Virus record (IMG/VR): IMGVR_UViG_3300032278_000056
Span: 1 to 34,064 of that record
Length of the DNA stretch: 34,064 nt
Strand: one strand, 5' to 3'
DNA from: a virus
Below the pieces are notes generated by a model. The model was not told the origin of the DNA, searched no databases, and saw nothing but the letters and a program-made list of their open reading frames with translations. Every line of letters begins with the position of its first letter. The stretch's first letter is position 1. Below are positions 7,493-31,372 of this stretch, piece after piece. A program made the position numbers and the translations under genes.

Positions 7493-7974
7493 TGACTGGC
7501 GATATAAAACTCATCGATATGCAGATCGAATTGGCGTGCGGTGATGAGGACGCAATTCAATTTTGTCGGATTATTGGACATATGATGCGTCTTGCCGATG
7601 ATCTTGTTGATGGTGAATCTGAGGATCTCAGTTCATCTATGTCCGAACTGTTATACCGAGTATGCGTAGATCTACAGCTCAATCCGTTTTACTTGAAACA
7701 CAGAGAAGTGCTTACTGCTACAGCAGGGGTAGACATCTTGCTTTGGGATGTCAGTAATCACTGGGCAAAGAGTTCAGTTCCCAAGGAGCAGGTTTTTGGT
7801 TTTGTTTATCGCATGGCTGTGAACACGTTTATTACAGTAGGAATGATCTGCGGAGGGATGAGCCATGCTCGTAATATGATCAAGAGAATTTTTGAATTTA
7901 ATCAGTTCCGAGACAATGAAGAGCAGCTTGAAGATTGGATAAAGGAACACCACGAGCTTAGAAAAGAGGCTTAA
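7492..7974 (+). CDS. Small all-helical hypothetical protein after the fibre
   Basis: This 160-aa product is predicted almost wholly helical from its pattern of hydrophobic and charged residues, with no signal peptide. It includes a negatively charged motif ADDLVDGE (about 36-43), a Trp pair in the middle and a charged C-terminal helix (EEQLEDWIKEHHELRKEA). It overlaps the fibre stop by one base and ends two bases before the next gene, so it belongs to the tail/internal-protein translation unit. Possible roles are a fibre chaperone or a small virion or lysis accessory protein, but nothing in the sequence decides this. Confidence 0.6.
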   Translation: MTGDIKLIDMQIELACGDEDAIQFCRIIGHMMRLADDLVDGESEDLSSSMSELLYRVCVDLQLNPFYLKHREVLTATAGVDILLWDVSNHWAKSSVPKEQVFGFVYRMAVNTFITVGMICGGMSHARNMIKRIFEFNQFRDNEEQLEDWIKEHHELRKEA

Positions 7975-7976
7975 TT

Positions 7977-9794
7977 ATGGGCATGTATGGCGGCAGCAAG
8001 AAAAACGATCCTTGGGATACGCAAGAAGAGAAAAACGCATGGCTTACTGGTACAGGTAGGACGCAGGCAAAGCAATCTCTTTCTGGGGGTATAAGCGATT
8101 GGAATCGAGAAGCGGGTCAATACAATACAATGCTTGGAAATATAAGCGGACAAGCCTCAAGCGCTAAAGATAAATTAGCCGATCTTGATTACACTGCTAA
8201 TTTATCTAATCTTCAAGGATATGGTTCTAATGCACAATCTAGATTAGACAGTCTCAGTGGTTTAACTAGACCTAGTGGGGCAAGGCCACAAAGAAAGAAA
8301 ATAGTTGATACTCCTTGGGGGACTAAACATCAATTTGATTTTACAAGCGACTTTGATCTTACGGACCCCCGTAGTGATTATGGTGCAATCAGTAGAATGG
8401 TCTCAGGAAACTTAGGAAGAGCTACATCTCTTGGTGAAACTCACGAAACAAAGAAAAGCGCATGGCAAAAGTTTAGAGATCAGCAGAATACAGATTTTTC
8501 AAATCTTCAAAAGGCTTATGGAAAATACGACATTTCAGACGCTCTAAAAGGCGGTGGCGTCTATTCATCTTTAGGCGATCTAGGTACTGAAGAAAGTCAA
8601 ACTGCACAATTTGGTAATAATTTATTTATGCCCTCCGATTGGCAAGGCAAGAAAAAAACCGCCTATGCCGGACTAGATAAAAAACTTGACCAGTTAATTG
8701 CTGACCGAGTAACAGAAGAAGGCCGCATAAAAACATGGGGTAGTGATTTAACAGGAAGACTAGAGGGGTATGAAAAATCCCTAGGCGGTTACGACATACG
8801 CAATCTTTCAGAACTTGAAGCTATGGAAGACAGCCTCAAGAAAGAAGAAAGAGATGCTGCAGCCTTTAGTTCGTTACTCCCATTTGATTTCTCAACCCAG
8901 AAACAATTTGGTACTGACATTGGTGCAGATGTAACAAGTCTTTTGCAAGATAGAGAAGATGAACTAGACCGTATTTCAGACGCACAATCAGATTACTACA
9001 ACGAAGCGATGCAAGCAAAACGCGGTGGTCGTTATTTAGATACCCGCAGTTTAGCAGGTATCGAAGAACTTGAAGATGAGTACGGAGACATAAGCGGTGA
9101 TATTTCCGGCTTCAGTTCTTTATTGCCTACAGATTTTTCCAGAGCCTTGGGTGTTCTTGGTGATGTAGACACAAGGACAAAGGCATTACGAACAGATCGC
9201 AAAAGCGAACTTGATGCTTTAATCGCAAAAGCAGGAACTTACTCGGACAAGATCTCTGGAACACCAATATACGAAGAAGATCTATTAGATAGATTGTTAT
9301 CCGAGATAGAAAATAAGAGACGTGGCGCAGCAGAGTACACCGGCGGTCGAGCAGGTGAAGCAACTGGAGCCTTTGATACGCAGTCCGAAGCGGTACAAGG
9401 AAGACTTGGAGACCTGCTATCCAAACGGCGCTCTCTTGAAAGTAGGGCCAAGAGTATGCTCAACCAATCCCGTCTGGGCTACTACAATACTGGCTCTCTT
9501 GATGCCAGTGCTGATGCTCTAGAACGGCTCCGTGGCGACATTGATATGTACGGCGCTGAAGGAGCTTATGATGAACTCGATCTAATTCTGGCACAACTAG
9601 AAAAAGAACGAGGTCGATTAGGATCAGAACGAGACGCTAGAAGCGCAGCTCAAAAAGCATCAGACCGGCGCGTATTACCAAGGTCATTTGGTCTCAAGGG
9701 ACCAATGACTGAGGCAGAATACGCTGCTCTCATCGCGAAAAAACGAGACGACGAACTACCGACATCCGGCAGCGCATTTGGTTCACTCGTTTAA
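7977..9794 (+). CDS. Internal virion-like protein with three tandem 82-residue repeats
   Basis: The 605-aa protein is highly charged and helical, without membrane segments. Residues about 215-465 hold three imperfect repeats whose (F/L)-(M/L)-P-x-D-(W/F) motif places Pro at 219, 302 and 384. Each continues through an (A/Q/T)DR-x-x-E segment to an acidic L-x-x-(I/M)E-x-x-x-D/E helix. The N-terminal part is Gly/Ser-rich (YGGSKKNDPWDTQEEK) and the C-terminus ends in a flexible SGSAFGSLV. It lies first in the block of long structural proteins downstream of the fibre, matching the place of ejected internal proteins in podoviruses. The specific role is unknown. A GAGG within the preceding codons serves as ribosome site. 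Confidence 0.6.
   Translation: MGMYGGSKKNDPWDTQEEKNAWLTGTGRTQAKQSLSGGISDWNREAGQYNTMLGNISGQASSAKDKLADLDYTANLSNLQGYGSNAQSRLDSLSGLTRPSGARPQRKKIVDTPWGTKHQFDFTSDFDLTDPRSDYGAISRMVSGNLGRATSLGETHETKKSAWQKFRDQQNTDFSNLQKAYGKYDISDALKGGGVYSSLGDLGTEESQTAQFGNNLFMPSDWQGKKKTAYAGLDKKLDQLIADRVTEEGRIKTWGSDLTGRLEGYEKSLGGYDIRNLSELEAMEDSLKKEERDAAAFSSLLPFDFSTQKQFGTDIGADVTSLLQDREDELDRISDAQSDYYNEAMQAKRGGRYLDTRSLAGIEELEDEYGDISGDISGFSSLLPTDFSRALGVLGDVDTRTKALRTDRKSELDALIAKAGTYSDKISGTPIYEEDLLDRLLSEIENKRRGAAEYTGGRAGEATGAFDTQSEAVQGRLGDLLSKRRSLESRAKSMLNQSRLGYYNTGSLDASADALERLRGDIDMYGAEGAYDELDLILAQLEKERGRLGSERDARSAAQKASDRRVLPRSFGLKGPMTEAEYAALIAKKRDDELPTSGSAFGSLV
8628..9360 (+). repeat. Three tandem ~247-bp coding repeats
   Basis: Unit landmarks are the P-x-D-[WF] codons: Pro at about 8631, 8880 and 9126, so periods of 249 and 246 bases. 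Similarity is clear in protein (FSSLLPFDFS versus FSSLLPTDFS) but diverged at DNA level, suggesting old duplication. Confidence 0.65.
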
Positions 9795-13543: not shown

Positions 13544-16500
13544 ATGAGTGAACTAGACCTTTTACTCCAAGAGTATGATCAAGCAGATCCCAATCGGGAT
13601 AAGTGGGACTATGACATTGAGTCAATAGATCCATCAAAGCTCTTAGCAGACCCCAGATTTCTGGCTGACTTGCGTCGCCTGTATGAAATAGAAGGTGGCA
13701 AGTTTGACTCAGACGAGGACATGGTCAACGACTGGTATCGTGGTCAAGCAGGTGCTGATGTAAACCTTGTGATGGCTGGTCGTCTGGCAGCAGAAACAAT
13801 AGGCGATGATGTAGAAACAAAGCGTATTAAATCTCGTCTGGCGAGAGCACGACAGCACATGCCTAACCCGTGGGAAGAAGGCTCTCCGGGCTGGTGGGAA
13901 TGGTCAAAGGGATACGTCGGTCACGCAGCGTGGGACCCGACTAACTTTATACCAGTTGCTTGGGGTGTAAAAGGGGTTCGTACTGCAGCGCTATTAGGAC
14001 AAGTTACTAAGGGACAAATTGCTAGATCTGCAGTCGGCAAAGAAGTCGCAAAAAAAGCTGCGATAACAGAAGGCACAATCTCTGGCGGTCAAGAAGCTGG
14101 ACTAGAAGCTCTACGCCAACAGAGAGATATAAGTATTGGCCGCCAAGACGGATTTAGTGTTGGAAGATTAGCTGCCCATACAGGTATTGGTTTTGTTGCT
14201 GGATCTGGAATAGGCTATGCGATAGCACAAGGAGCGACTTGGTTCGTTGGAAGACGTGCTCTGATGAACATCGACAAGCTCAAGAAGCTCGGCTGGCACG
14301 AGGAAGACATTGCCAAGCTCGGAGAAAAAGAGTTCAAGCACGCATGGAAAACTGGGCAAACCGCTCCGCATGTCGAGCGAACCCCAGAAGGCGAGACCAT
14401 CGATATATTCCCCGGAGACCCCAGCCATGCTGAAGGTGTCCCAAGTGGCCGAGCACTAAATCCAGACGAGCTTGAGGCGCTAGGCAGAGAGCCACACTAT
14501 GGGCGTACTACAAGCGTAGATGAGAGATTAACGCCGGAGGGGGAACAAGTAGACGTTGCTGTTAATGAAGAACTCCGTCTGGCGGAACAAGCAGAAGTAG
14601 CAAGAGCTGCTGGTGTTGAGGTTCCCGCCCCGGTAGATAACGCAGGGGAAAGAATACTAGCTGATCAACAGCGTCAACTGGAAGAACATCTAGTCTCTCT
14701 TCGAGCCGATAAAGAAGGCAAGCTATCAGATCCAGAAAGCGGTCTTTGGGATCAGATAGAAGCTGCAGCAGTAGAACTAGCTAACGTACGCAAACTGCGA
14801 AACTGGCGAGCAAGGATAGAACGCGAACAAGTTGAGATAGATGAACTTCTCGCATCCAATGATCCGGGGAAAATTGCAACTGGCCGTAGACGAGCAATTG
14901 ATAATGCCAAGACACGCGCAGAATATGACACATTAATTGATCGAGTCATAAGAGATCCGTCTGAGCTTGAGAAACTAGACGCTGAAACAATCTCAGCTCT
15001 AGAAGCCTCTGGAGAACCTTTAGCTACAAGGTCATTCCCAGAAGGGCAAGATCAACCTGATATGGTGCAACCGGGAGATGATGGCGGGACAGTAATAGAT
15101 GCTGGATTCCGAGAAGGCGGTAAGGATCTAGACCCAACAGGCGAAGCCACTGGCGCAGACGCTGCAGCTCGTGATGCCAAAGGCGAAGAAGTACCTGATA
15201 CATCTGGCGAAGCAGCAGACGCGGATACAGGCACAACCGAAACAACTACGCCTGAAACAACCACGACCGAAACTAAGGGCGGTCGCCCACCAATAGTATT
15301 AACTCCAGAACAAAGATCTGCTCTTAGCGATGCTGGTATTTCTAATGCACAGATGGATGGAGACCCAACAACTGGGACCAAAAAAGTAAGGCCGTCTCGT
15401 TTGGCTGCAGTTCTCGCTAATAAAGCAGGCATAGATACAAAGAATGCAGACGGGTCTAAAAAATCCACACAAGAAATACTCAACGAGTGGGATGATTACA
15501 ACACTACAGTAACTGAGGATGCGTCTTCTGTTGCTGCTGGTGATGCCCCAGTTGGTGAAGCTCCAGTAGTACATATTGATGACGAAGTATCTGTAGCACT
15601 AGCAGAACTTAGCGAGATCATAACTGCATCGAACCCAGAGTTATTCCTAGATAAAGGTATTGTCTTTACCCACATAGAAACCAATGGCCGGTCGAAAGAA
15701 GTACAAGACCTGATGAAAGATAAATGGTTGGCTATGATGGATACCGAGCCAACATCTAAAAGCTATCTTGAAGGTTTGAGTGAGGCAGACGCCAAGTGGA
15801 TTGAGCGTGAAGTAAACAAACGCTGGAAAGAGATGGAGAAAAATGCGAGCCAGATGCTTATGGCTCATCCCGCCATGAGAGAGATGTATGGATCTCTTGA
15901 GGGATTCTATGCAAAAGCTCGGCCAAATTTAGAACGACAAGTGCGAGCAGATTTCTTAGAAGGACGCATTGGCCCACGAAAACGACAGACTGGCGCAACA
16001 CAACGAGCAATCGATAAGGTCGAGGGAACGCTTGGCCAAAGAACAGAAGAACAAATTAGTGACGCTGAACGTATCGCTGAAAGTTTCCGCATCGCAAGAG
16101 AAGCCCGTGATAAATCTCAGCTTGCTAGAGCCTTCAAACCAAAAGATATTGACGAAGCCCCCACCACTGGAGAGAGCATAGAAGGGGAGCTACAAGTCAG
16201 GGCGTATGCAGATTTAACCGGCACACAAGCACCAATTAAATATAAAGCACTTGGATCTGAGGAACTAGCAGATACAAAACGAGTTGATGCTGAGAGCGTA
16301 GACGCCAGACGAGAAAGAGAAGATGCTCTGGCTGAAGCAGAAGCCCTAGCGTTTAGCGGTAGAACCAAAGCTCAAAGAGCTGCTGCTGCCAATAAAGCCA
16401 TTGAATTAAAAGAAGAAGGGGAGAGGATCTGGAAGAAAGCATACGCTTCTCGTGGCAAGGAAGTATGGTTTGACCCCGTCACACAGAAGACGTACTCGAA

Positions 16501-19500
16501 TAGAAACAACATTAACGTCGCTCACAAATCAGTAGACGATGTAGATCTCGGCCCTAAAGTAACTGCACAAGAAGCGCACAGTGCTGCTAGAAACAGGCGA
16601 AGAATAGAACTTGCTCAGAAATTAGCTGCTGTCAAACAACGTGGTGCGCGTGGCACAGAAGCAGAAGAGATGGATGGGTGGCAAAGAGAACTAGATCATC
16701 TCGATGCTGAAGTCGGAGCAGAGGTCCGGGCAAGAGCATCTGAAGACTTTGCTGAAGGAGATCAGACAATCTCTGATATTTCCGCAAGAGCAGAGGAATT
16801 AAAGGAACGCAGGCGTGCCCTAGGAGAGCCAGACGATCAGTATTATGACGATCTGGTAGAGGCTGCTGGATCTGGGGCAGCGAAAGAAGAAGATGCGCTA
16901 CTGGCTATGAACAGAGCGCTATATGATTCTGATGGTGCCGAGCACATGATCTCAAGCGATCCAGAAGGGTACGAGTTCACACCCACTGGCCGCAAGAAAG
17001 TAGTAGACGAAGACGGTGATGAAGTCATAAGCGATGCGGTAGCTAGAACGGCAGAAGAGCATACCGATGCAATAAATAAAGCCTTCTCTGAGTTCCAAGA
17101 AACCCAGAACCCACAAGCATTCCAAGATGCCATACGCGCAATTAACGAAGACTTTGCCCTTGATGGCACAGATGCAGCCTTACCAGAACCACCAGTCAAA
17201 GCTGGTGTTAGGGGCCAAGATCGAATAGTTGCGATAGTCAAACGTGATGGTGATCTGAGTGAGAAGAAAAATATCCGTGTCATTTCCCAGAAGCAAATTG
17301 ATCAGGGCAAGGGGCATAGAGATCTACTCGGTAAGTCAAAAGAAGAAGACTGGATAGTTGGTTCTATACCACGAGGCGTTAGCAAATCTGATCCAAGTTT
17401 CTCCGAGAAGTTCGTACCTGATAGACCGGATGATGCTGCTGCCGTAGCAAAAATTCCAGAAGGAACAGCGGGTTCTTCTCATACACCACTGGACGATTTT
17501 AATCGACAGACGTTTGAGCTTGTCATTGGACCTAAAGGCGGCGGCAGAGTATTCACTGGCCCGTTCGCAGATATGTTTGAACAGATTAACTTTGTTAGCA
17601 AACATAAGGCATACGGGGAATTCTTTGACGATGCCGCCTTCAAGGAAGGCAAGCTATCTATTACTGGCAAAAACTTAGACCAGTTAGTAGTAGACCTAGG
17701 GCATGGGTATCCAAATTCCAAGACCGGGGTATTCGCAAACACTGCGGGTGATCATGCTGATCGAATTCAGATGCTTGAAACAATGCTCGAAGTCCGTCGC
17801 CAAGTTGCACCTAACGGCATTAGACGACCAGACGAGGATGTCAAAGTAGTTACTGATAGGTTGGTTACTGAGATATTCTCAGAGGCAGACGAGGCAACTA
17901 AGGGAGTCGCAAGAGATATACTGAATCGAGTATCTCTAGCATACAAACATGCACCGGGTGGAACTGCTAATCGCGCTCCGATTGTTACTGAAGGCGGACG
18001 AGGATTTGAGTTTGGCCACAATACCAACGAGATACATGTTGGTGAGATTGGACAAGGCTTCCAACCCGATGCAAGCAGATTGATCCATGAAGTTGGGCAC
18101 TGGTCATGGGACAACATTCTTACGGACGCAGACAAGATCGAATATCTCCAGATCCTCAGTAAGTATTATGACGAAGCTGGGAACCTTGATCTAACTGCTT
18201 TGAAGGGCAGGACTATAGACGGAGACACCATTAAGTCGAACGCACTTGAGTCCCCCGGAGAATTTTTTGCCAGTCAGTTAGAACGATGGGCAACACAAAA
18301 TGTTTACAGGAATGAGATAGGTGACGATCATTTCTGGAAACGAATGATCAACTATATGAAGGCAGTATTTGATCGCTACATGGATGGCCGTCGAATTGAC
18401 CCGGACATGGAAAGATTGTTCAAGAAAGTTTTACCCGCAAACGAAGCTAGAGCAGCAGCAGAGCGTGGCCCAACAACTAGGGCTGGAACTAAAACTGGCC
18501 AAGCTGTTCTAAATAGAGCATGGGCGCTTGACGATATTATGGACAGGGTCAACGCCACCTTAGTTGGCGAAGACATGCTTGAACAACTTAACTCGCCTGC
18601 AGATCTTATGCACTACTTATGGTCTATTGGTGGTGGGCACATGGGCAAGAACCCATTGAACGCAGTCTCAAAAATAAAAATGGAGATTGTCGGGGCTTCT
18701 CGGAAATTAAAAGAAGCATTGAAGATTCCAGAGGGATTAGACCTTGAGAGATCTAGGGAAGTTATCGCGGACATCGCCCCAGATTCAGCAGAATTTGAGA
18801 GACGGGCTAACCTTGTTAAACGTCTGATGACAGAAGCACCGGAAGGTGAGAGATCTATTAATGAGGTAGTCGAAGACATCAGACGACGTTTGGCTAAGGC
18901 ATTTTACAATGCTGAAGGCGAACATTACCGGCCAGATAATATGCCGGAATCTGTTAAGAAATACGCCTATCGAAATAGCGCTGGAGAATTTCGCGCCCCC
19001 GGAGCTAGTCGCAGTAATAAGGGAAAGATGTATGCAGCCGCCAAGAAGCAGCAGGACAGGCGGAAGGCACGGGTAGAACAAGACCTAGAAAAAATAGCTA
19101 AAGCACAGCGTGTTGAATCACCCGGAGAAGCACCAGCTCCTAATGTCAGTCTTAAAAAACTGTCAGACGAAGACTTGCTTAGACTTTGGGGAGAAAATAA
19201 TACCGGCAAGTACGGTAAACAAATTGCAAACGAATACTCTGCCAGGGTCAAGGCAATGCCATTGCCTGCTAGAGCTGTAGAAGTATCAGACGAAGTATTC
19301 AACACCTCTACGAAGTCATTGCTATCCAATGCTCGCGATTCTTGGCGAGCTGGCGATAAGAAAATGATGGATCAATATCTGTACGAATACAGTCGACGTG
19401 CTTTCAACAAGAACAACCCTGACAAGAAGGTAAATGCTGTTCGGAGCAAAGTTGTTATAGATCTGATCCGAAGAGAAGTTGCTGACACCATTGGCGATGA

Positions 19501-22500
19501 AGCAGATGATGGCATCCCAGCAAATGCTAGGGCTAATGTCAGAGAAATACTATCTCATGTAAGCAACCGTAACCCAGAGCGGCAATTATCAGAGAGACGT
19601 ATGATGTATCGTCTGCTTGCTCTGGCTGGACGAACTCAGCCGGGAGCTGAACATGAGAATCTTGTAACCATTGGAGACATCTATCGTCTGGGGCGTGGTG
19701 ATGCGATAAGCGGGTTCAGGGAAAGTCCAAGACCACACCACCCTGATTCAGTATTCAGCGATTACAATGATCCAGAGTTCAAACATTTAAGACGAACCGT
19801 AAGGGAACTCTCAGAGATGTTAGATAGTGGAGAACCTGACGCAATTCAATCTGGTGTAAGTATGATTATCAGATCTGGCATCTTATCTAAAGATGACATG
19901 TCATCACTAATGCGTGAGTACAAACCATTTGGCAAGGAATTTGATCAGGGTGCCAAGAGAATGTACTACAAGAATGTTGGACGCATTGCAGACCTTAGAT
20001 CGTACCCAGAAGAGCAAGAAGACGCGGCAATTCATTGGCTTGCTTCGGATACTTATGCGCTACTTGATAACAAAGGATCAGAGATTGCTGACCCCGGTTT
20101 AATAAATATACAAGACAGAGTAATAGAAGGACTCGCCTATTTGTTTAATGGTGAATTAAAGAACGCGGCAATGAAAGAACAATTCACCATGTTAGATGCG
20201 TATGGTGACATGTTCATGCCACTCAGAGTAGGCGGACAGCACCCACTACTAGATGTAATTGGTAGGCGTACTGCAATACCATCTGAGTATTCCGTTGATT
20301 ATGTAGGACAGCTTTTAGAGTCCATGCACCCAGATAGATTCGACGCGATGATGTCGTTCATCGGTCGTGGCATAGGAAGATCTAGAGGCGGCGCTCCTTT
20401 AATCCACTGGCACGGCACTGCAAGCGGATCTATAGAGGCAAACCCGGATTTCACAGTACATCTTTCAGCAGCAGATGCACAATACGGCCCCGGCTTTTAT
20501 GTAGCTAGTGGGCCTAATGCTAGAAAAGCTGCCGCTATATATTCCACAGGATCTGCGTCACCGAGAAGCTACGAGTTTAGAATTTCCGATGCGATCAAGC
20601 GGGGAACATTAACAGAAGAGCAAGGCGCTGAACTTCTGGGTGTTTCAATGGATATGCTTGAATCCAGACGGATGATCAAGCTGAACAACACTTGGATAAG
20701 AGAAGTTAAGCGTGGGGAATATTCAGAAGGACATCCTTGGATTGAAACTAGGTTCGAGCCTGCTGATGAAGAAGCTGTGCGTATAGCTCAGTACACATCT
20801 AATATACGAAATGCTAGAGATGTAGAAAGATTTGCAACACAGGTACTACAAGAAAACGGTATCGGTGATGAGCCGCATGTTATCCCTATGGTTATTAGAT
20901 TAAATAACCCAGCAGACTTTAGAACAAATATTTCGTATGACAGCGCGAGTCCACTGATACTGGAGATAAATAAAATAGGCGGAGCATCGGGAGCATTAGA
21001 TAGCCATGCTCTTCGTATGTTGAACTCCCAATTATCAGAACCGAAAGACGGGGTTGCTACATATAAAGCATTAGTCAAGGCATTCGCGGCAAACGAAAAT
21101 TCTTTAGGGACTCCCAACGCTAAACAAAGACTGGCACAGTTCCTAGAAGATGAGATGGATTTTGACGGGATGATGTTTACTCATGGTATCTCAGAAGAAG
21201 ACGGTCTACCAAAACACTTTGATGGGGCATTAGTTTGGAACAAGAATCAAGTAAAGGCAATTACCGCAAAAGAGTTTGACCCATCGTCTGATCACTTTAG
21301 TCAGAGCGTTCTTCGACCACGTGGCGATGTCGTTGATGGCGTATCTCCCAACGGGGTACTGATGTCAGCGCATATTGCTAACGCAAGAGCTGGCAACAAG
21401 GGTGCTAACTTTGCTCCAATGGGCACAGTCCTTGAAGAAGGCGGCGTTCCTCCGCGTACGGTTGATGCAATGCGTAACATGCTCAAGGGTAAGAAGGCTA
21501 CTGATACCGACCTCAGAGAAGTAAGGAAGTTCAGCCCAATGCTCCAGCTAAGAACTAACTCTGCTCGTATGAGAGCATGGGGCGCAGACTGGTTTGCCGA
21601 TTGGGTATCCCCAATAGACGGTCATGGGTTTTACGAGACGCACCACGTATCTTTGGCTGGCAAGATTATGCCGATCATTAAAAGTTTGAATAAGATCTCG
21701 TCTGGCCACGGCTCGAAAGGAGCTATGGCACGATGGATGTCCCGTTCAAATCCGCTATCTAGGAATATGTCTGCAGCAGAAGAGAACATAACTAGAGCAC
21801 TTCGTCGAGCACCGGGAAACTCTTACGAGAAAAAATTATCCGCCGAAGGCCAAGCAACGCTCGCGGATATAAGGGCGATGTTTGCCAATGAGATACGGGA
21901 AATGGAGAAGGCCGGGATCATAACCGGAAAGATAGAAAACTATTTTCCCCAAATTTGGAGTGTTGAGAAGATCCAGGCAAACATGGACTCTTTCAAAACG
22001 AGAATGGCCCAGTATTTTGTGCACGAAGCAAATGATCGTGGGGAGAAGATGGATATGGGCAATGCCGTTATTCGTGCAGACGGCATGATAGAGAACCTTC
22101 TATCAGAAGATGGCATCAATCTACCCCCAGTTGGTGGAGGCAGCAGAGATAAAGTTACTGACCATATTGATTACCAGAGATTGATTCGTCTTGACCAGTA
22201 TCCTGAAATGCTTGAAGCGCTGGAGCCGTTTCTTGAGAGCAACCTGAGAGATGTCCTAGTTAAATACCTTGATGGTACGACATCACGAATGGTGTTCCAC
22301 AACAAATTTGGCGTGAAAAACCACGGGTTCTACGCCTACAAAAAAGTAATTCAGGAAGGGGAGAGCGGTATAGCAGATCTTCTATCGTCTGACTCTATAA
22401 AACTCAGGCCAATCAAGGGAAGGATCGGCGGAGAAGGCGTCATCGAACACGCCAACTTCAAGCACAGAATTATCAAAGCTCCATACTCGTCTGACCGCAG

Positions 22501-24064
22501 ACAAGAAGCAGAAGCTGCAGCAGCAGAAGTTCTGAGACTGTATCGTGATCGCGGGAAACTGGCGGCAAGGAGATACTTAGAAGACCTAGTAGAAGAACCT
22601 AATCCAGAATGGAGCAAACGAGCCGAGGCAATATCTGAAGGGGTACGCATTGTAAACGATGATGCCGTTATACACGCAGGCGAGCTTGATCACATGGAAG
22701 GCACCTTCAATGCTCTCCAAAGAAAGCCAGTTGATGGTGGCAGTCGGTTCTTTGAGTCGCAGCACAAATTCTCTAAAGCCGCCCGTAACTTTACAGCAGT
22801 AACACTACTAGGCTGGACAGCTTTAACATCTACCACTGACCCAGTATTGCCGATGATTAGATCAGGCAGTATGAAGGCATGGTATCGAGGGATAAGGGAC
22901 TGGGCCAAGAATCCAAACTACCGAGACATGATACGAGAGTCTGGTATCGCTATAGAAAACCTCGTGCATGAACGTCTGGTACACCAGTATGGAGTAGACG
23001 GATCTAAATTAGCCACGTCGTTCTTTAATGCTACGATGCTTACCCCGTGGACTCAGATGCAACGTGAGTGGGCTGGTCTGATAGGATTTAACTGGCTGAA
23101 GGCAGAACAAAAGAACTACTGGCAATACGGTAAGGAACACCGCCTAGGTAAAAAAGCATTTAGGATTCTCAAGTCTTACGGCTTGGATCATCTCACCCGT
23201 GACGGCGCGTATCAGCTAGACACGCCTGCAGACATTGGCAAAGATGATGCACTAAAGATGGGCTTGATCAAATTCTCCAACCAGTCTATATACACACCGA
23301 ATCCAAATGACATACCACTATGGGCGCAGACACCAATAGGGGCAATGATGTTCCAGCTCAAGTCGTTCCCCATGATGATGGGTCGCATGGTCGGTGGCCG
23401 CAATGAAACCAGAGGCATCATACAAGAAGCATTTTCTAAAAAAGATGGTGCCCGTAATGTAACTCCGTTACTCTACTTCTTAGCAATAGCTCCGTGGTTT
23501 GGTGCAGGCTCACTGGCTTCAAAGGACTACGCGCAAATGCGTGGCGGCGAAGACCAGAGAAGCTCGGCCCTGAGAGATCGTAGGCTGTCAAAGAACCTCG
23601 AACATCTAGGCGTCGATGACATTACGATAGACGAAATTGCTGACCTCCTTGGATACAACCCCGATCTTCACCCAGACCGAGACGCATGGCTAGGTCATTA
23701 CGTTGAAGGCTTTGGTCATCTTGGGGGTCTATCCCTTGTCGGTGAACTGATGCACAGTGCCGCCGCTAACGCTGATAACGGTGCTTACGGATTGAATCGA
23801 ATGATGTCTATGGTTATGGGGCCGTCATTCGGACATCTGATTGGCTTCGGTACAGCCTTCCAAGGACTACATTCTACGTTAGTTGGTGATGAAACCACCG
23901 GAGAAAGACGCGCTGGAGTTCGGGAAGTAGCCGCTCGCATACCCGTCTTGGGTGGCGTAAGAGCCTTCAGAGAAGGCATAACAGATATGATAGCTGGACA
24001 ACCAACCAAGAAGAGCGGTGGCTCGTCTAGTGGTTGGGGAAGTTCTTGGTCAAATAGCTGGTAA
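13544..24064 (+). CDS. Giant polyvalent virion protein: metallopeptidase and ADP-ribosyltransferase-like domains
   Basis: 3,506 codons without a frame break, nearly a third of the window. In order: an N-terminal conserved region (about 1-240) with a hydrophobic helix near GIGFVAGSGIGYAIAQG; a charged helical stretch; a Thr/Glu-rich linker (about 560-580); more helical linker; then a zinc-peptidase motif HEVGH (1515-1519) with a likely third ligand in GEFFASQ (Glu 1573). An ADP-ribosyltransferase-like segment starts WHGTASGS (His 2290), has YGPGFYVAS (Tyr 2319) and ends near FDGALVWNKNQVKAI (about 2560). The last 900 residues carry ENYFPQIW and two hydrophobic patches, and the protein ends in a Ser/Trp tail (SGWGSSWSNSW). 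Position and size match the largest ejected protein of podoviruses. No RNA-polymerase motifs were seen. Enzymatic activity is inferred from motifs. Confidence 0.8.
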   Translation: MSELDLLLQEYDQADPNRDKWDYDIESIDPSKLLADPRFLADLRRLYEIEGGKFDSDEDMVNDWYRGQAGADVNLVMAGRLAAETIGDDVETKRIKSRLARARQHMPNPWEEGSPGWWEWSKGYVGHAAWDPTNFIPVAWGVKGVRTAALLGQVTKGQIARSAVGKEVAKKAAITEGTISGGQEAGLEALRQQRDISIGRQDGFSVGRLAAHTGIGFVAGSGIGYAIAQGATWFVGRRALMNIDKLKKLGWHEEDIAKLGEKEFKHAWKTGQTAPHVERTPEGETIDIFPGDPSHAEGVPSGRALNPDELEALGREPHYGRTTSVDERLTPEGEQVDVAVNEELRLAEQAEVARAAGVEVPAPVDNAGERILADQQRQLEEHLVSLRADKEGKLSDPESGLWDQIEAAAVELANVRKLRNWRARIEREQVEIDELLASNDPGKIATGRRRAIDNAKTRAEYDTLIDRVIRDPSELEKLDAETISALEASGEPLATRSFPEGQDQPDMVQPGDDGGTVIDAGFREGGKDLDPTGEATGADAAARDAKGEEVPDTSGEAADADTGTTETTTPETTTTETKGGRPPIVLTPEQRSALSDAGISNAQMDGDPTTGTKKVRPSRLAAVLANKAGIDTKNADGSKKSTQEILNEWDDYNTTVTEDASSVAAGDAPVGEAPVVHIDDEVSVALAELSEIITASNPELFLDKGIVFTHIETNGRSKEVQDLMKDKWLAMMDTEPTSKSYLEGLSEADAKWIEREVNKRWKEMEKNASQMLMAHPAMREMYGSLEGFYAKARPNLERQVRADFLEGRIGPRKRQTGATQRAIDKVEGTLGQRTEEQISDAERIAESFRIAREARDKSQLARAFKPKDIDEAPTTGESIEGELQVRAYADLTGTQAPIKYKALGSEELADTKRVDAESVDARREREDALAEAEALAFSGRTKAQRAAAANKAIELKEEGERIWKKAYASRGKEVWFDPVTQKTYSNRNNINVAHKSVDDVDLGPKVTAQEAHSAARNRRRIELAQKLAAVKQRGARGTEAEEMDGWQRELDHLDAEVGAEVRARASEDFAEGDQTISDISARAEELKERRRALGEPDDQYYDDLVEAAGSGAAKEEDALLAMNRALYDSDGAEHMISSDPEGYEFTPTGRKKVVDEDGDEVISDAVARTAEEHTDAINKAFSEFQETQNPQAFQDAIRAINEDFALDGTDAALPEPPVKAGVRGQDRIVAIVKRDGDLSEKKNIRVISQKQIDQGKGHRDLLGKSKEEDWIVGSIPRGVSKSDPSFSEKFVPDRPDDAAAVAKIPEGTAGSSHTPLDDFNRQTFELVIGPKGGGRVFTGPFADMFEQINFVSKHKAYGEFFDDAAFKEGKLSITGKNLDQLVVDLGHGYPNSKTGVFANTAGDHADRIQMLETMLEVRRQVAPNGIRRPDEDVKVVTDRLVTEIFSEADEATKGVARDILNRVSLAYKHAPGGTANRAPIVTEGGRGFEFGHNTNEIHVGEIGQGFQPDASRLIHEVGHWSWDNILTDADKIEYLQILSKYYDEAGNLDLTALKGRTIDGDTIKSNALESPGEFFASQLERWATQNVYRNEIGDDHFWKRMINYMKAVFDRYMDGRRIDPDMERLFKKVLPANEARAAAERGPTTRAGTKTGQAVLNRAWALDDIMDRVNATLVGEDMLEQLNSPADLMHYLWSIGGGHMGKNPLNAVSKIKMEIVGASRKLKEALKIPEGLDLERSREVIADIAPDSAEFERRANLVKRLMTEAPEGERSINEVVEDIRRRLAKAFYNAEGEHYRPDNMPESVKKYAYRNSAGEFRAPGASRSNKGKMYAAAKKQQDRRKARVEQDLEKIAKAQRVESPGEAPAPNVSLKKLSDEDLLRLWGENNTGKYGKQIANEYSARVKAMPLPARAVEVSDEVFNTSTKSLLSNARDSWRAGDKKMMDQYLYEYSRRAFNKNNPDKKVNAVRSKVVIDLIRREVADTIGDEADDGIPANARANVREILSHVSNRNPERQLSERRMMYRLLALAGRTQPGAEHENLVTIGDIYRLGRGDAISGFRESPRPHHPDSVFSDYNDPEFKHLRRTVRELSEMLDSGEPDAIQSGVSMIIRSGILSKDDMSSLMREYKPFGKEFDQGAKRMYYKNVGRIADLRSYPEEQEDAAIHWLASDTYALLDNKGSEIADPGLINIQDRVIEGLAYLFNGELKNAAMKEQFTMLDAYGDMFMPLRVGGQHPLLDVIGRRTAIPSEYSVDYVGQLLESMHPDRFDAMMSFIGRGIGRSRGGAPLIHWHGTASGSIEANPDFTVHLSAADAQYGPGFYVASGPNARKAAAIYSTGSASPRSYEFRISDAIKRGTLTEEQGAELLGVSMDMLESRRMIKLNNTWIREVKRGEYSEGHPWIETRFEPADEEAVRIAQYTSNIRNARDVERFATQVLQENGIGDEPHVIPMVIRLNNPADFRTNISYDSASPLILEINKIGGASGALDSHALRMLNSQLSEPKDGVATYKALVKAFAANENSLGTPNAKQRLAQFLEDEMDFDGMMFTHGISEEDGLPKHFDGALVWNKNQVKAITAKEFDPSSDHFSQSVLRPRGDVVDGVSPNGVLMSAHIANARAGNKGANFAPMGTVLEEGGVPPRTVDAMRNMLKGKKATDTDLREVRKFSPMLQLRTNSARMRAWGADWFADWVSPIDGHGFYETHHVSLAGKIMPIIKSLNKISSGHGSKGAMARWMSRSNPLSRNMSAAEENITRALRRAPGNSYEKKLSAEGQATLADIRAMFANEIREMEKAGIITGKIENYFPQIWSVEKIQANMDSFKTRMAQYFVHEANDRGEKMDMGNAVIRADGMIENLLSEDGINLPPVGGGSRDKVTDHIDYQRLIRLDQYPEMLEALEPFLESNLRDVLVKYLDGTTSRMVFHNKFGVKNHGFYAYKKVIQEGESGIADLLSSDSIKLRPIKGRIGGEGVIEHANFKHRIIKAPYSSDRRQEAEAAAAEVLRLYRDRGKLAARRYLEDLVEEPNPEWSKRAEAISEGVRIVNDDAVIHAGELDHMEGTFNALQRKPVDGGSRFFESQHKFSKAARNFTAVTLLGWTALTSTTDPVLPMIRSGSMKAWYRGIRDWAKNPNYRDMIRESGIAIENLVHERLVHQYGVDGSKLATSFFNATMLTPWTQMQREWAGLIGFNWLKAEQKNYWQYGKEHRLGKKAFRILKSYGLDHLTRDGAYQLDTPADIGKDDALKMGLIKFSNQSIYTPNPNDIPLWAQTPIGAMMFQLKSFPMMMGRMVGGRNETRGIIQEAFSKKDGARNVTPLLYFLAIAPWFGAGSLASKDYAQMRGGEDQRSSALRDRRLSKNLEHLGVDDITIDEIADLLGYNPDLHPDRDAWLGHYVEGFGHLGGLSLVGELMHSAAANADNGAYGLNRMMSMVMGPSFGHLIGFGTAFQGLHSTLVGDETTGERRAGVREVAARIPVLGGVRAFREGITDMIAGQPTKKSGGSSSGWGSSWSNSW

Positions 24065-27386: not shown

Positions 27387-27623
27387 ATGAAGAAAAAGAT
27401 TTTTAATGTTGCGCGACTGGTGGCAGATATGGGGGGAGCCGCCACCATCTCGGCTCTCATTGGCACCCCTCGAACAGCTCCGTACAGGTGGATTAGGCAC
27501 CGATATATATCAAGTCGGATGCTCGAAGCATTGAAATTCCACTACCCACACTTAAACTTTGACGATTATTTCGAGGAAGACTATGGCAATGACGAGCAAG
27601 ACGGAACCAGAAACCTCCATTGA
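27387..27623 (+). CDS. Cro/CI-type helix-turn-helix repressor
   Basis: This 78-aa protein begins MKKKIFNVARLVADMGG. It has one helix-turn-helix with the pattern AATISALIGTPRTAPYRWI (about 18-36), where the second helix should read the operator. The tail is acidic and His-containing, possibly for dimerisation. It is the first rightward gene after a divergent control region with a dyad, the usual arrangement for an autoregulated phage switch. Its reading frame overlaps the start of the replication gene by about 40 bases. No peptidase domain is present, so it is Cro-like rather than a LexA-like cleavable repressor. Confidence 0.75.
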   Translation: MKKKIFNVARLVADMGGAATISALIGTPRTAPYRWIRHRYISSRMLEALKFHYPHLNFDDYFEEDYGNDEQDGTRNLH

Positions 27624-29520
27624 AACACTAGATTCAGCACTTGAATATCTTGAGCGGGGATGGTCCATCATCCCCGTCCGCGTCTCTGGTCAGGGCAAAA
27701 AGATACCACACATCAAGTGGAAAGAGTTTCAGAACAGAGCGCCCACGCCAGAAGAAGTAGAGAAATGGTTTGAGATGTGGCCAGATACAGGGATAGCCCT
27801 AGTAACTGGTAAGATCTCCGGCATATATATAGTCGATTGTGACACTATAGAAGCACAAGAAGAAGCGGAACGCCTTGGCCTTCGTACGCTGATTAAATCC
27901 CGCACACAGCGTGGCAAAGAAGGGTGTCATCTCTACTTCGAGCACCCCAGAGATGAGAAGATCCGTGGTAATCGAGTTGGAAGTAACGCAGACGGAATAA
28001 ACTGGCCAAAGATAAATGGCTTAGACTTCAGGGGTGACGGCGGTTACGCATTATTACCGCCCTCTAAGGGTTACACGTGGGACATCCCGTCTGGCATTGA
28101 CTCAGACGACATGTCGATCTGGAAAGATCCTCAAAACCCCACCCCCGCCACCTCCTCCACCACCGCCTCCACCGTTATAGACATCGCTACTGGGGAAGAG
28201 TTCGATCTATCTTCCTTAGACCTGTCTGACATTTCGGCCAAGAACCACATACCTGAGTGGGATAAGACACATGACTATGTCCGAGAGAGCTTCCCAAGCA
28301 CTCTAAAAATACCATCGGGACAGGGTAACGCTAGGAACGACCGTGTCATGCGACACATCAGCGACTCTATTTTGCGTGGCTTTTGGGGGGACGAACTTCG
28401 GGCCAAGGGTCGATCATTCATGCGGGAATTCTTTGAAGACCCCCTGCCGGAAGCGGAGTTCCTTGCTACGGTTGCCAGTATGGAGTCGGCAGAACGTAGG
28501 AATCACCCGGAGAGATTAGAGAAGCACGAGACTACGGCACCCCCAAGCTCTGACGTAACTCTATTGTCAGAGATAGATGCGTCACGCCTTATCGCGGAAG
28601 CATCTAGCCGAGCCTATATAGTTGAGCCGTGGTTGTGGCCGGAATCCATCACCCAAGTCCACGGTTACTCTGGCTCTGGTAAAAGTATGTTTCTTCAACA
28701 CGTTCTATACGCAGTATCCACGGGACAAGATCGGTTCGGCCCCTTCTTCCTAGGGCGCAGAGCTAGAGTGTTGTATCTGGATTTTGAAATGGGCCGTGGA
28801 ACTATTGGGTCTAGGCTACAGATATTGCAGAGTATGTATGGTTCTAGCAACAACACCTATCAAGTATGGGCACCGTTCTCTGATGAAGACATGGATCTCA
28901 AGAAGAGAGAGGGGTTGAACAGGCTAGATTCTGTAATAAGAACAGCCAATCCAGAAATTGTCGTTGTTGACACCAATCGCTCGGCCTTCGTAGGGTTGGA
29001 AGAGAACAGCGCAGAGGGATGGTCATACGTTAATCGAGTGTTGCTTCGCTTGAGGGATATGGGACTGGCCGTAATCTCTGTGCACCATAGCAATAAGCCG
29101 GGTGAATCTGGACTAGGTCGGGAAGCCGGATCAACCGGACAACTGGCTATACTAGACACACAGATAAGAGTTGCCCAAGTATACGAAGATGAAGCAACTG
29201 CCAAGCAAAACGCAGGGATCTGGGACTCTTCATATACCAGTCCTGTATTCCCTGCTATGGCTAGATCATTGCCGGAAGGATTTGATTTGCAGATGGTATT
29301 GGAACTGCGCTACCGTAAGGTCCGTGAGTGGACGGAACACCATGAGTGGGGGCAATGGGTTGGTTTTGCTGTGAACCACCAAGATGGTAGCCGAATCGTA
29401 GTCGGCAGTCGTAGCCCAAGACAGAAGGCTCAGGCGTTAGCGTCTCAGGGGATGGTGCCTGCAGAAATTGCACAAACTTTGCACAAACCCATGAAGGCAG
29501 TGAAGGAGTGGATCAGTTGA
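27583..29520 (+). CDS. Prim-pol / RecA-like helicase replication protein
   Basis: The start ATG 27583 has GAGG six bases upstream; the frame is open back to a TTG at 27559. The N-terminal third is a primase-polymerase domain: Asp85 and Asp87 in IVDCDT, His116 in GCHLYF, and DFRGDGGYALLPPS around 148-161. The middle is a RecA/RepA-type ATPase with Walker A GYSGSGKS (361-368), Walker B EIVVVDT (Asp463) and a sensor VISVHHSNK. The last 35 residues form a helix-turn-helix (AEIAQTLHKPMKAVKEWI). Total 645 aa. This single protein can prime, and probably unwind, DNA at the phage origin. It overlaps the repressor gene and is followed directly by a small zinc protein. No DNA polymerase gene lies in the window. 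Confidence 0.85.
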   Translation: MAMTSKTEPETSIETLDSALEYLERGWSIIPVRVSGQGKKIPHIKWKEFQNRAPTPEEVEKWFEMWPDTGIALVTGKISGIYIVDCDTIEAQEEAERLGLRTLIKSRTQRGKEGCHLYFEHPRDEKIRGNRVGSNADGINWPKINGLDFRGDGGYALLPPSKGYTWDIPSGIDSDDMSIWKDPQNPTPATSSTTASTVIDIATGEEFDLSSLDLSDISAKNHIPEWDKTHDYVRESFPSTLKIPSGQGNARNDRVMRHISDSILRGFWGDELRAKGRSFMREFFEDPLPEAEFLATVASMESAERRNHPERLEKHETTAPPSSDVTLLSEIDASRLIAEASSRAYIVEPWLWPESITQVHGYSGSGKSMFLQHVLYAVSTGQDRFGPFFLGRRARVLYLDFEMGRGTIGSRLQILQSMYGSSNNTYQVWAPFSDEDMDLKKREGLNRLDSVIRTANPEIVVVDTNRSAFVGLEENSAEGWSYVNRVLLRLRDMGLAVISVHHSNKPGESGLGREAGSTGQLAILDTQIRVAQVYEDEATAKQNAGIWDSSYTSPVFPAMARSLPEGFDLQMVLELRYRKVREWTEHHEWGQWVGFAVNHQDGSRIVVGSRSPRQKAQALASQGMVPAEIAQTLHKPMKAVKEWIS

Positions 29521-30034: not shown

Positions 30035-30195
30035 TAACTTGTCTCCGATGAGTTATCGACGGTGGATTCATCGTGGTTGTCACCACACTCAGTAGTATCT
30101 CCAGTGCATACATCGACACCAGATGTTGAGTCACCCACTTCAACACACCCGCCAAGAAACATCACCCCAAGACACATAAACAGAAGATACTTCAT
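30034..30195 (-). CDS. 53-aa lipoprotein
   Basis: The sequence starts MKYLLFMCLGVMFLGGC: a short signal peptide with a lipobox LGGC, so lipid-modified Cys17 is predicted. The mature part is small and very acidic (about 9 Asp/Glu), Ser/Thr-rich, with two further Cys (CTGDTTEC) that might form a disulphide. GAGGA lies six bases upstream of the ATG at 30195-30193. It overlaps both neighbours (ATGA and TAATG), showing one translation unit. Small phage lipoproteins act as outer spanins or superinfection-exclusion factors; the lack of a Pro-rich region argues slightly against a spanin. Confidence 0.75.
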   Translation of the reverse strand: MKYLLFMCLGVMFLGGCVEVGDSTSGVDVCTGDTTECGDNHDESTVDNSSETS

Positions 30196-30359
30196 TGCTT
30201 GTCCTCAAAGTTTACTGATAATAGAAAGCCATCTTGCCCAACTCTGGTGTGCATAGAGCACCCCTCAAGAAGAATAAGAATGACAATAAGAATAACCACA
30301 CCAAGCCAAGAACCTACTATTCCCGGCCAACTGGCAAACCAAGATAAGAATTTACTCAT
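30192..30359 (-). CDS. 55-aa membrane microprotein, first of leftward mini-operon
   Basis: The start ATG 30359-30357 has a strong GGAGG site four bases upstream. One long, almost purely Leu/Ile/Val helix (WLGVVILIVILILL) follows an aromatic N-terminus (SKFLSWFASWPG) with one Lys. After the helix come EGCSMHTRVGQDG and a short polar tail. LEGC resembles a lipobox, but Glu at -2 makes lipidation doubtful. The stop overlaps the lipoprotein start. The product could be an inner-membrane partner of the lipoprotein. Confidence 0.75.
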   Translation of the reverse strand: MSKFLSWFASWPGIVGSWLGVVILIVILILLEGCSMHTRVGQDGFLLSVNFEDKQ

Positions 30360-30379: not shown

Positions 30380-30492
30380 TCGAAAAGCCGTGTAACTGTT
30401 ACATCTGTTTAACTGTAGATCGTTCCGGCGACCCCAAAGGGGAGTCGGAACACAGGTACTGCTCCCTGCTGTAGCTCCTAACGGCTTTTCGA
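30380..30492. ncRNA. Candidate structured RNA or cis element closed by a 12-bp inverted repeat
   Basis: TCGAAAAGCCGT (30380-30391) and ACGGCTTTTCGA (30481-30492) are perfect complements 89 bases apart. Inside lie a hairpin GTTCCG/CGGAAC with an inner CCCC-AAA-GGGG (30422-30451), a CAGG/CCTG stem (about 30453-30468) and a near-palindrome TGTAACTGTTACA (30391-30403). The plus strand continues ATTTTG, a weak U-tail. It sits between the start of the leftward microprotein operon and a rightward gene, so on the minus strand it would be the 5' leader of that operon. The left arm can also form a local GGCT-CGAAA-AGCC hairpin, giving a possible switch. No known RNA family was recognised. Confidence 0.5.
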
Positions 30493-30546
30493 TTTTGCCC
30501 GAACACTGGCCACCAGTCAACCTTGGGTGCTTTCCCCTGTATTTTC

Positions 30547-30555
30547 TGGTATTAT
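30547..30555 (+). promoter_or_regulatory. Extended -10 promoter for the HTH/zinc gene
   Basis: TGG-TATTAT at 30547-30555 matches the TGn-TATAAT extended -10 pattern (5/6 in the hexamer). No good -35 lies 16-18 bases upstream. A transcript starting near 30562 would leave only about five bases before ATG 30567. Confidence 0.45.
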
Positions 30556-30566
30556 TCGCGCCCAAG

Positions 30567-30872
30567 ATGCCCAAGAAGATCATGGTTACAGACCATGATA
30601 TGCAGTGGTTGCGAGATAACCATAAAAATTACCGCTACCCAGAGTTAGCCGACAAGATCGGCGTATGTACTGATACCCTGAAGAGAATATTAGTAAGAGA
30701 AGGATTACAAGATTTCGCAGGCGCTAAGTATCAGGTCAGTAGAGCAAGTAAGGCGAACCAGAAATGGGCGCGTCCTTGTATGCGTTGTAAATCCATCCGC
30801 CCCCGCCCCAAGTGGCAGTATATCTGCGACAAGTGTAAATCCCACGACAGCTACGACCCGTGGCTAGACTAA
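30567..30872 (+). CDS. HTH / zinc-ribbon small regulatory protein
   Basis: ATG 30567 or ATG 30582 is the likely start; the frame is open to a TTG at 30495 that would read through the structured element. The 101-aa product has a helix-turn-helix (ELADKIGVCTDTLKRILV, about 28-45) and a zinc ribbon CMRC ... CDKC near the C-terminus. Together they suggest a small DNA-binding regulator. It is the first gene of the rightward early block and overlaps the nuclease gene by 13 bases. No Shine-Dalgarno sequence is clear. Confidence 0.7.
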   Translation: MPKKIMVTDHDMQWLRDNHKNYRYPELADKIGVCTDTLKRILVREGLQDFAGAKYQVSRASKANQKWARPCMRCKSIRPRPKWQYICDKCKSHDSYDPWLD

Positions 30873-31372
30873 CAGCTCGCGGATCTAAGGCTAAAGGGGA
30901 TCGCTTCGAGCGAGAACTGGCCACCTATATCAACGAATCAGTAGGTACTAATGCAGTACGTGCACCATTGTCTGGCGGCGGGTCAGTCTTTGCCAGTGGC
31001 GGCGCGGATCTACTCGGTGTCCCCGGTATGTTTATAGAGGCCAAGCGGGTCGAGCGTCTGAACTTCCATGACGCCATCAGACAGGCCGAAAGAAACAAAG
31101 CAGCCACTGGCTGCCCAGATATTCCTGTTGTTATTAACCGCAAGAACCATCAGACGACCGGAGAATCTCTATGTGTTCTTCGATTGGACGACCTGCTGAA
31201 CCTGTATCGTTACTATCTACAAAGGGACGTGGACTACTCGGAGAACAAGGAAGATGCGGTCATTGAAGTTAGTGGACACGGGCGACAAAGTAGTAGGAAG
31301 GATTTTGAACCAAAACGAACAGGTCGCCGGGTCAGCACTTTGTATGATCGACGATCTCAGGGAGCAGATTAA
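30860..31372 (+). CDS. PD-(D/E)XK nuclease / resolvase-like protein
   Basis: GTG 30860 starts inside the previous gene. The N-terminus (RGSKAKGDRFERELA) has the first acidic residue of the fold. The catalytic core is GGADLLGVPGMFIEAKR (Asp in GADLL, then Glu-x-Lys in IEAK), a pattern of phage PD-(D/E)XK endonucleases related to Holliday-junction resolvases. The last 40 residues are basic and disordered and share their DNA with the start of the next gene. No ribosome site precedes GTG, so translation probably depends on coupling. About 170 aa. Confidence 0.75.
   Translation: MARLTARGSKAKGDRFERELATYINESVGTNAVRAPLSGGGSVFASGGADLLGVPGMFIEAKRVERLNFHDAIRQAERNKAATGCPDIPVVINRKNHQTTGESLCVLRLDDLLNLYRYYLQRDVDYSENKEDAVIEVSGHGRQSSRKDFEPKRTGRRVSTLYDRRSQGAD

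Follow-up and report, generated by a model that had tools for sequence, protein, structure and literature searches.

The window analyzed here, a stretch of 34,064 nucleotides of viral DNA, carries two 12-base arms that are exact complements of each other and lie 89 nt apart. The original prediction took them to be the closing stem of a new structured RNA, possibly a leader switch, and allowed that the site might also act as DNA. Which of the two it is, and what such an element would do where it stands, are the questions raised by this locus. As set out below, we put folding at the DNA level at about two in three. Our preferred reading, to which we give slightly less than an even chance, is that the DNA itself folds back here, within the control region of a phage replication module, and acts there as a switch.

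Inspection of the window bore out the exactly complementary arms (the outer stem, P1) as well as the predicted multi-branched fold, in which internal stems form a central hairpin with weaker hairpins on its flanks (Table 1). RNA folding of positions 30380-30492 gives −48.7 kcal/mol on the plus strand (z −5.86; 0 of 200 shuffles as good) and −41.7 kcal/mol on the minus strand (z −3.73), and folding with DNA parameters gives z values of −5.73 and −4.45 for the two strands. The best inverted repeat near the HTH gene scores 30 in the window, where 20 mononucleotide shuffles reached no more than 26; by itself such a score is only moderately unlikely, and the comparative evidence is the strong part. 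The DNA of the element is present once in the 34,064-base record. No Rfam match was found for it, either in the window or in the elements of the relatives, and models of tRNA and tmRNA gave no match at the element, the one tRNA detected being an unrelated one in the phage isolate CRP-810 described below. We found no published description of the element in the open-licence literature.

Table 1. Features of the window at and around the foldback element (positions count from the first letter of the window)
Feature	Position	Strand	Remark
Foldback element (P1 outer stem and internal hairpins)	30380..30492		Homologous element in the same place in relatives
P1 left arm, TCGAAAAGCCGT	30380..30391		Letters changed in L002 and L029, pairing still perfect
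P1 right arm, ACGGCTTTTCGA	30481..30492		Final base is the final base of the leftward −10
Central GC-rich hairpin with asymmetric internal loop	30422..30451		Triloop AAA (+) / TTT (−), not GNA here
Leftward sigma70-type promoter, TTGACT-N17-CAAAAT	30492..30520	−	Kept in L002 and L029
Near-palindrome ACTGGCCACCAGT inside leftward promoter, operator-like	30505..30517		Seen directly
First leftward gene past the element (55 aa; SD GGAGGGAG)	30195..30359	−	Membrane/lipoprotein-like by eye
Rightward extended −10, TGGTATTAT (TG-G-TATTAT)	30547..30555	+	Seen directly
HTH + zinc-ribbon protein gene, adjoining the element	30567..30872	+	
Holliday-junction resolvase-like PDDEXK protein gene	30860..31372	+	
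Prim-Pol/AAA helicase gene	27559..29520	+	Replication gene across the element

The predicted setting was likewise confirmed. The element sits upstream of a leftward operon of small genes, the first of which has a Shine-Dalgarno sequence and an ATG at 30359 on the minus strand, and to the left of a rightward promoter whose extended −10 ends 11 bases ahead of the ATG of the HTH gene, an arrangement which suggests that the message of this gene may be leaderless or carry a very short leader. In the relatives L002 and L029 the rightward −10 ahead of the HTH gene looks similarly arranged. Two smaller sequence features had been pointed out as possible binding sites. The 13-base near-palindrome is present and overlaps the leftward promoter-like site. 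The direct repeat TAACTGT is also there (30393-30399 and 30410-30416), but with its second copy one base away from where it had been placed, and since it is absent from the closest relative we gave it no weight.

From left to right, the window thus reads Prim-Pol/AAA helicase, small leftward genes, element, HTH/zinc-ribbon gene and resolvase-like gene, and other genes of the neighbourhood encode SSB-like, Sak4-like and Cas4-like exonuclease proteins and one or two resolvases. The predicted structure of the HTH protein (mean pLDDT 77.9) has three helices followed by a Cys4 region. Pfam has no match for this gene or for most of the leftward genes, a Foldseek search with the HTH model returned a best E of 1.1, and the 55-aa leftward protein of the window has no PHROG match. 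About a third of the record is a single open reading frame of 3506 aa (13544-24064, plus strand), similar in length to the N4 virion RNA polymerase although a relation to it was not detectable by sequence search; neither Pfam nor PDB has a match for this virion protein, and PHROG has just a weak virion-structural one near its end.

Using the HTH gene, we found relatives in IMG/VR as a set of 23 loci and then as the best 80 of 231, the best 80 of 278 and again the best 80 of 278; the resolvase gene as query gave 8 further loci, overlapping the HTH-derived sets. Because these sets overlap and hold the best 80 of longer lists, the loci are not independent viruses and clusters alone are counted below: 253 regions upstream of HTH-gene relatives, two of which were dropped as shorter than 200 nt, yielded 82 sequence clusters. 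The prim-pol gene is 35-83% identical across ten loci and the viruses are therefore diverse, and the collection also includes L002-L005, which with 0-2 differences per 3900 bases are practically one virus. In the nearest relatives of the window (L002-L005 and L029) the closing stem is kept while letters are changed on both arms. Searches for the element at the nucleotide level came back empty (no match among annotated phages, the element DNA not found in the records of 18 relatives and an exact 19-base pattern not found in viral contigs), presumably because its letters have diverged too far.

One annotated isolate carries the same HTH gene, Roseobacter phage CRP-810 (L114, OR671924.1), described as a member of a phage family that occurs worldwide and keeps its gene order (PMC11288001); in the accessible portion of that paper we found no description of the foldback element. 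Judging from the sequences compared, the element is family-wide in phages of the CRP-810 type. In the CRP-810 record the HTH/zinc-ribbon gene (8001-8288, plus strand) and the leftward small gene (7438-7752, minus strand) are both unannotated. The sole match to the HTH family in a bacterial genome is on the chromosome of a Mesoflavibacter MAG (L113, CP051228.1), in which no comparable element was found. In the distant loci L009, L012, L013 and L014 an apparent rightward intrinsic terminator separates the HTH gene from the element.

A comparable long-range stem (score at least 23, span at most 140) is held by 55 of the 82 clusters, and the 27 clusters that fall outside, without a strong P1, are mostly more distant ones. 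Since the best of 20 shuffles of a region often scores 21-26, the stem score alone is weak, and position and covariation carry the claim. As to position, in 47 of the 55 clusters a leftward sigma70-type promoter points into the element with P1 overlapping or abutting its −10 (promoter score at least 9, −10 at most 9 nt from the stem start), versus 147 of 1100 random positions; 8 of the 55 have no good promoter alongside. The offset between P1 and −10 varies from −8 to +9, P1 merely abutting the −10 in the window. In the commonest layout, that of 25 of the 47 clusters, the stem starts exactly three bases ahead of the −10, at the place of the TG of an extended −10.

These 25 elements were aligned over 11 P1 pairs. 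All cells of the alignment are paired (266/266), 63 of them are double-changed, none shows a one-sided change, and changes on both sides occur in 9 of the 11 pairs. Covariation, the check named along with the original prediction, is strong in P1, which scores 0.623 where shuffles give 0.141 and slid versions no more than 0.152; as P1 stems were picked as the best Watson-Crick repeats, these counts and those of stems and promoter overlaps in the family are partly selected. The only P1 count free of stem selection is a promoter-anchored test, which took from 67 of the 82 clusters (promoter score at least 10) an 11-base arm with its first base three ahead of the −10 and sought a partner 70-150 nt downstream, with half credit for wobble and with the stem unused for the choice. 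A complete Watson-Crick partner (11/11) was found in 24 of the 67 clusters, one of 10 pairs in 3 and one of 9 in 3, and mismatch-free partners including wobble occur in 28 of 67 versus 105 of 3350 shuffles. The window, L002 and L029 do not count among these 24, since in them it is the final base of the −10 that opens the stem. When the wider region is folded as single-stranded DNA, the best fold contains P1 in 41 of the 47 clusters with a promoter. The inner helices are out of register between members with triloops and members with tetraloops.

That so regular a structure acts as an RNA, be it a 5′ leader ahead of the leftward operon or a small RNA made from the leftward promoter, with the outer stem and hairpins controlling translation or termination, we consider rather unlikely. 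A conserved promoter does fire into the element, a leftward ORF starts close to P1 in 43 of 55 clusters, the end of P1 is close to the Shine-Dalgarno sequence in the window and in L002, and the inner part holds a TGAGTT motif in 13 of 55 regions versus 1.8 expected. Against this stands the place of the 5′ arm. Transcription from sigma70 promoters usually starts about seven bases past the −10. In the commonest layout, seen in 25 of 47 clusters, the only conserved promoter has its extended −10 inside the 5′ arm, which spans about −15 to −4 and would be missing from a transcript started there; in the window the arm is at about −7 to +5, and an RNA could hold part of the stem.

The composition of P1 points the same way. 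Structured RNAs commonly have about a tenth of their pairs as G.U, but wobble is almost absent in P1, where Watson-Crick pairs change to Watson-Crick pairs without wobble intermediates, and it is still rare in the promoter-anchored test, where it is hardly penalised. Among 39 located close variants, 28 are all-Watson-Crick and the same as their representative; the other 11 contain unpaired positions, which for the most part are already unpaired in the cluster representative. Paired sites within clusters show 4 G.T, 4 A.C, 15 other single-sided and 3 double-sided mismatches and 4 compensated changes, substitutions too few to separate the strands, and close relatives carry no informative arm changes. 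The perfect arms might be aided by template-switch correction in replication, which would itself be a DNA-level process.

Neither strand folds better than the other once composition is corrected for: the mean z is −6.09 on the minus and −5.99 on the plus strand, the minus strand being lower in 25 of 55 clusters (p 0.89). In contrast, SRP RNA genes treated identically (the 25 loci with full flanks, out of 30) give −1.78 for the sense and −0.27 for the antisense strand (21/25, p 3e-5). With P1 left out, the inner parts again fold equally well on the two strands, with RNA and with DNA parameters (mean z about −3.4). Before correction, however, it is the minus strand that has the lower RNA folding energy in 41 of 55 clusters (mean −2.9 kcal/mol, p 9e-5), which speaks for an RNA; the shuffle-corrected z removes this bias, yet a minus-strand RNA would show such a bias too. 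Finally, GNA triloops have a special stability bonus in DNA. Triloops of the GNA/TNC type make up 22 of the 35 triloops within the elements and 26 of the 235 outside them in these loci (p 9e-11); read on the minus strand, 15 are GNA and 7 TNC, and since both occur they fit the folding of either DNA strand, which together with the missing Rfam match argues against an RNA. Taken together, what stands of the original prediction is a conserved, strongly covarying, multibranched structure without an Rfam match. What is not supported is that it is chiefly RNA, in view of the arm in the −10, the absent wobble and the strand-symmetric z; strand symmetry and absent wobble favour instead the DNA-level action that had been suggested beside it.

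The genes to the left also vary. No leftward ORF starts close to P1 in several more distant clusters. Where one is present it often encodes a small protein with a common NRRKYPE..VDEVR..FPDAKV motif, recognized by eye. In L046, L101, L104 and L263 it encodes a RuvC-like Holliday-junction resolvase (best PHROG E 3e-17 to 1e-32), and L070, L203 and L213 are RuvC-like through similar sequence; SNase or SET domain proteins are single cases. The SET-domain gene follows the element of a marine phage (L029, 4167-4493, minus strand). In three RuvC-bearing loci (L046, L070 and L101) the ORF starts just before the left arm, so that the arm forms the first codons, and the stem is still perfect. Through all this the gene product changes, and the constant parts are the element and its promoter. 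Because the type of leftward gene varies or the gene is missing, the element is not the leader of one gene, and a leader switch is not supported, the 5′ arm lying over the extended −10 in 25 of 47 clusters. Where a RuvC-like leftward gene and the right-hand PDDEXK resolvase are both present, two resolvases would flank junction-forming DNA.

Matching arms could also arise at the level of duplex DNA. If one repressor were to bind both arms as paired operator half-sites and loop the DNA between them, the common reader would keep the arms matched, and the two arms of one genome are indeed identical while those of another genome differ; they also overlap a promoter and adjoin a gene for an HTH protein, in regions that contain GTAT-N8-ATAC sites (13 versus 0.26 expected). 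However, the arm spacing ranges over 69-122 with no helical phase (R 0.06), and the inner part folds by itself far above chance on both strands, with the mean z given above; we rejected looping operators as the whole story on these two grounds and regard such a pair as improbable. A short segment between perfect inverted repeats, in a family with an integrase gene in CRP-810, likewise recalls an invertible segment, whose inner part would be turned over by recombination at the arms, the arms staying identical as a result. Yet 0 of 122 cluster members are inverted, and common 9-mers are found 532 times in the same and 49 times in the reverse orientation. With both orientations not found, an invertible promoter segment was rejected as highly improbable.

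An element with a conserved place and promoter, a covarying perfect stem over the −10, strand symmetry and DNA-type triloops could, we infer, fold in vivo, affect transcription and have some role in replication. In the DNA-level switch that we prefer, the melting segment of the leftward promoter (about −15 to +5) would double as one arm of the perfect long-range stem, its partner lying about 70-120 bases downstream with stable hairpins in between. Negative supercoiling, or single-strandedness in an R-loop or at a replication fork, would let the strand fold, and the stem would then capture the −10/start region and exclude normal sigma70 initiation. As the DNA to be melted is one arm of the fold, folded and transcribing states should exclude each other. 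To extrude about 110 bp out of a duplex takes much energy, and single-stranded DNA is the easier setting. The folded strand would offer a branched junction to the phage Prim-Pol helicase, the HTH protein and the Holliday-junction resolvases; the region would toggle between leftward transcription and a replication/recombination state, and may be an origin. Given the neighbouring replication and recombination genes, a role of this kind would be natural for the element. The full version, a junction foldback that controls the replication module through competition between promoter opening and folding and whose folded strand is an origin or recombination entry site recognised by Prim-Pol, HTH protein and resolvase, we put forward only tentatively.

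An overlapping proposal makes the element a replication origin proper, its single-stranded fold serving as the loading or priming site of the Prim-Pol helicase or host RNA polymerase supplying an R-loop primer; on the sequences at hand this would be possible but doubtful. The element lies between the Prim-Pol and HTH/resolvase genes in 10 loci with listed ORFs, and AGGTGT/ACACCT repeats abound, 32 of 55 regions having them (52 sites versus 5.7 expected); these and the GTAT-N8-ATAC sites stand on the flanks of the element in many clusters. A precedent of a related kind is a phage Prim-Pol that begins at a particular 8-base sequence of its template (PMC8775771). On the other hand, the GC skew has no break at the element, and the repeats lie beside the −35 and may be operators.

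Were the preferred switch to hold, the element would offer a natural model in which promoter melting and DNA folding compete, and a candidate origin of phages with a Prim-Pol helicase. To our knowledge, conserved regulatory DNA folds have rarely been proven, and comparative screens usually presume RNA. Here tens of diverged marine-phage copies allow fold, promoter and their overlap to be read together, with CRP-810 as an isolated member. Our results suggest that strand symmetry, missing wobble and GNA/TNC loops, used with controls, are a practical way to separate DNA from RNA structure in genomes.

Several known systems resemble the element in part. Riboswitch-like leaders in Rfam are likewise multibranched, have a closing stem and lie between promoter and gene; the present element, in contrast, has no Rfam match, has an arm within the promoter, is strand-symmetric and lacks wobble. 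The sso and ssi sites of rolling-circle replicons are single-stranded DNA sites at which RNA polymerase or primase synthesizes primers (PMC5714925), as the folded element might be; no rolling-circle initiator showed up among the genes searched here. The promoters of the N4 virion RNA polymerase are hairpins that supercoiled DNA extrudes, in the cell through the action of gyrase, and an N4 hairpin placed between the −35 and −10 of rrnB kept that sigma70 promoter shut until gyrase was inhibited (PMC4496689). They share with our element DNA hairpins, extra-stable three-base loops with a sheared G:A pair, and letters that are free as long as pairing holds (PMC4496689). As to the N4-type loop (C-GNA-G), GNA triloops are enriched in the family and absent from the central hairpin of the window. 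The element differs in its size of about 110 bp, its long-range stem and its sigma70-type promoter; an N4-like polymerase system was rejected, as a virion RNA polymerase of this type was not detected by sequence search. That folded single-stranded DNA can recruit RNA polymerase is known from Frpo of conjugative plasmids (PMC9849209), which like the element is non-coding DNA that folds when single-stranded and holds a −10 in a stem (PMC9849209). The Frpo fold, however, rebuilds both −10 and −35, and here the single-stranded DNA fold pairs the −10 in 38 of 47 clusters and the −35 in just 17 of 47, which led us to reject a single-stranded promoter of the Frpo kind; unlike Frpo, the element has a normal promoter in its duplex form.
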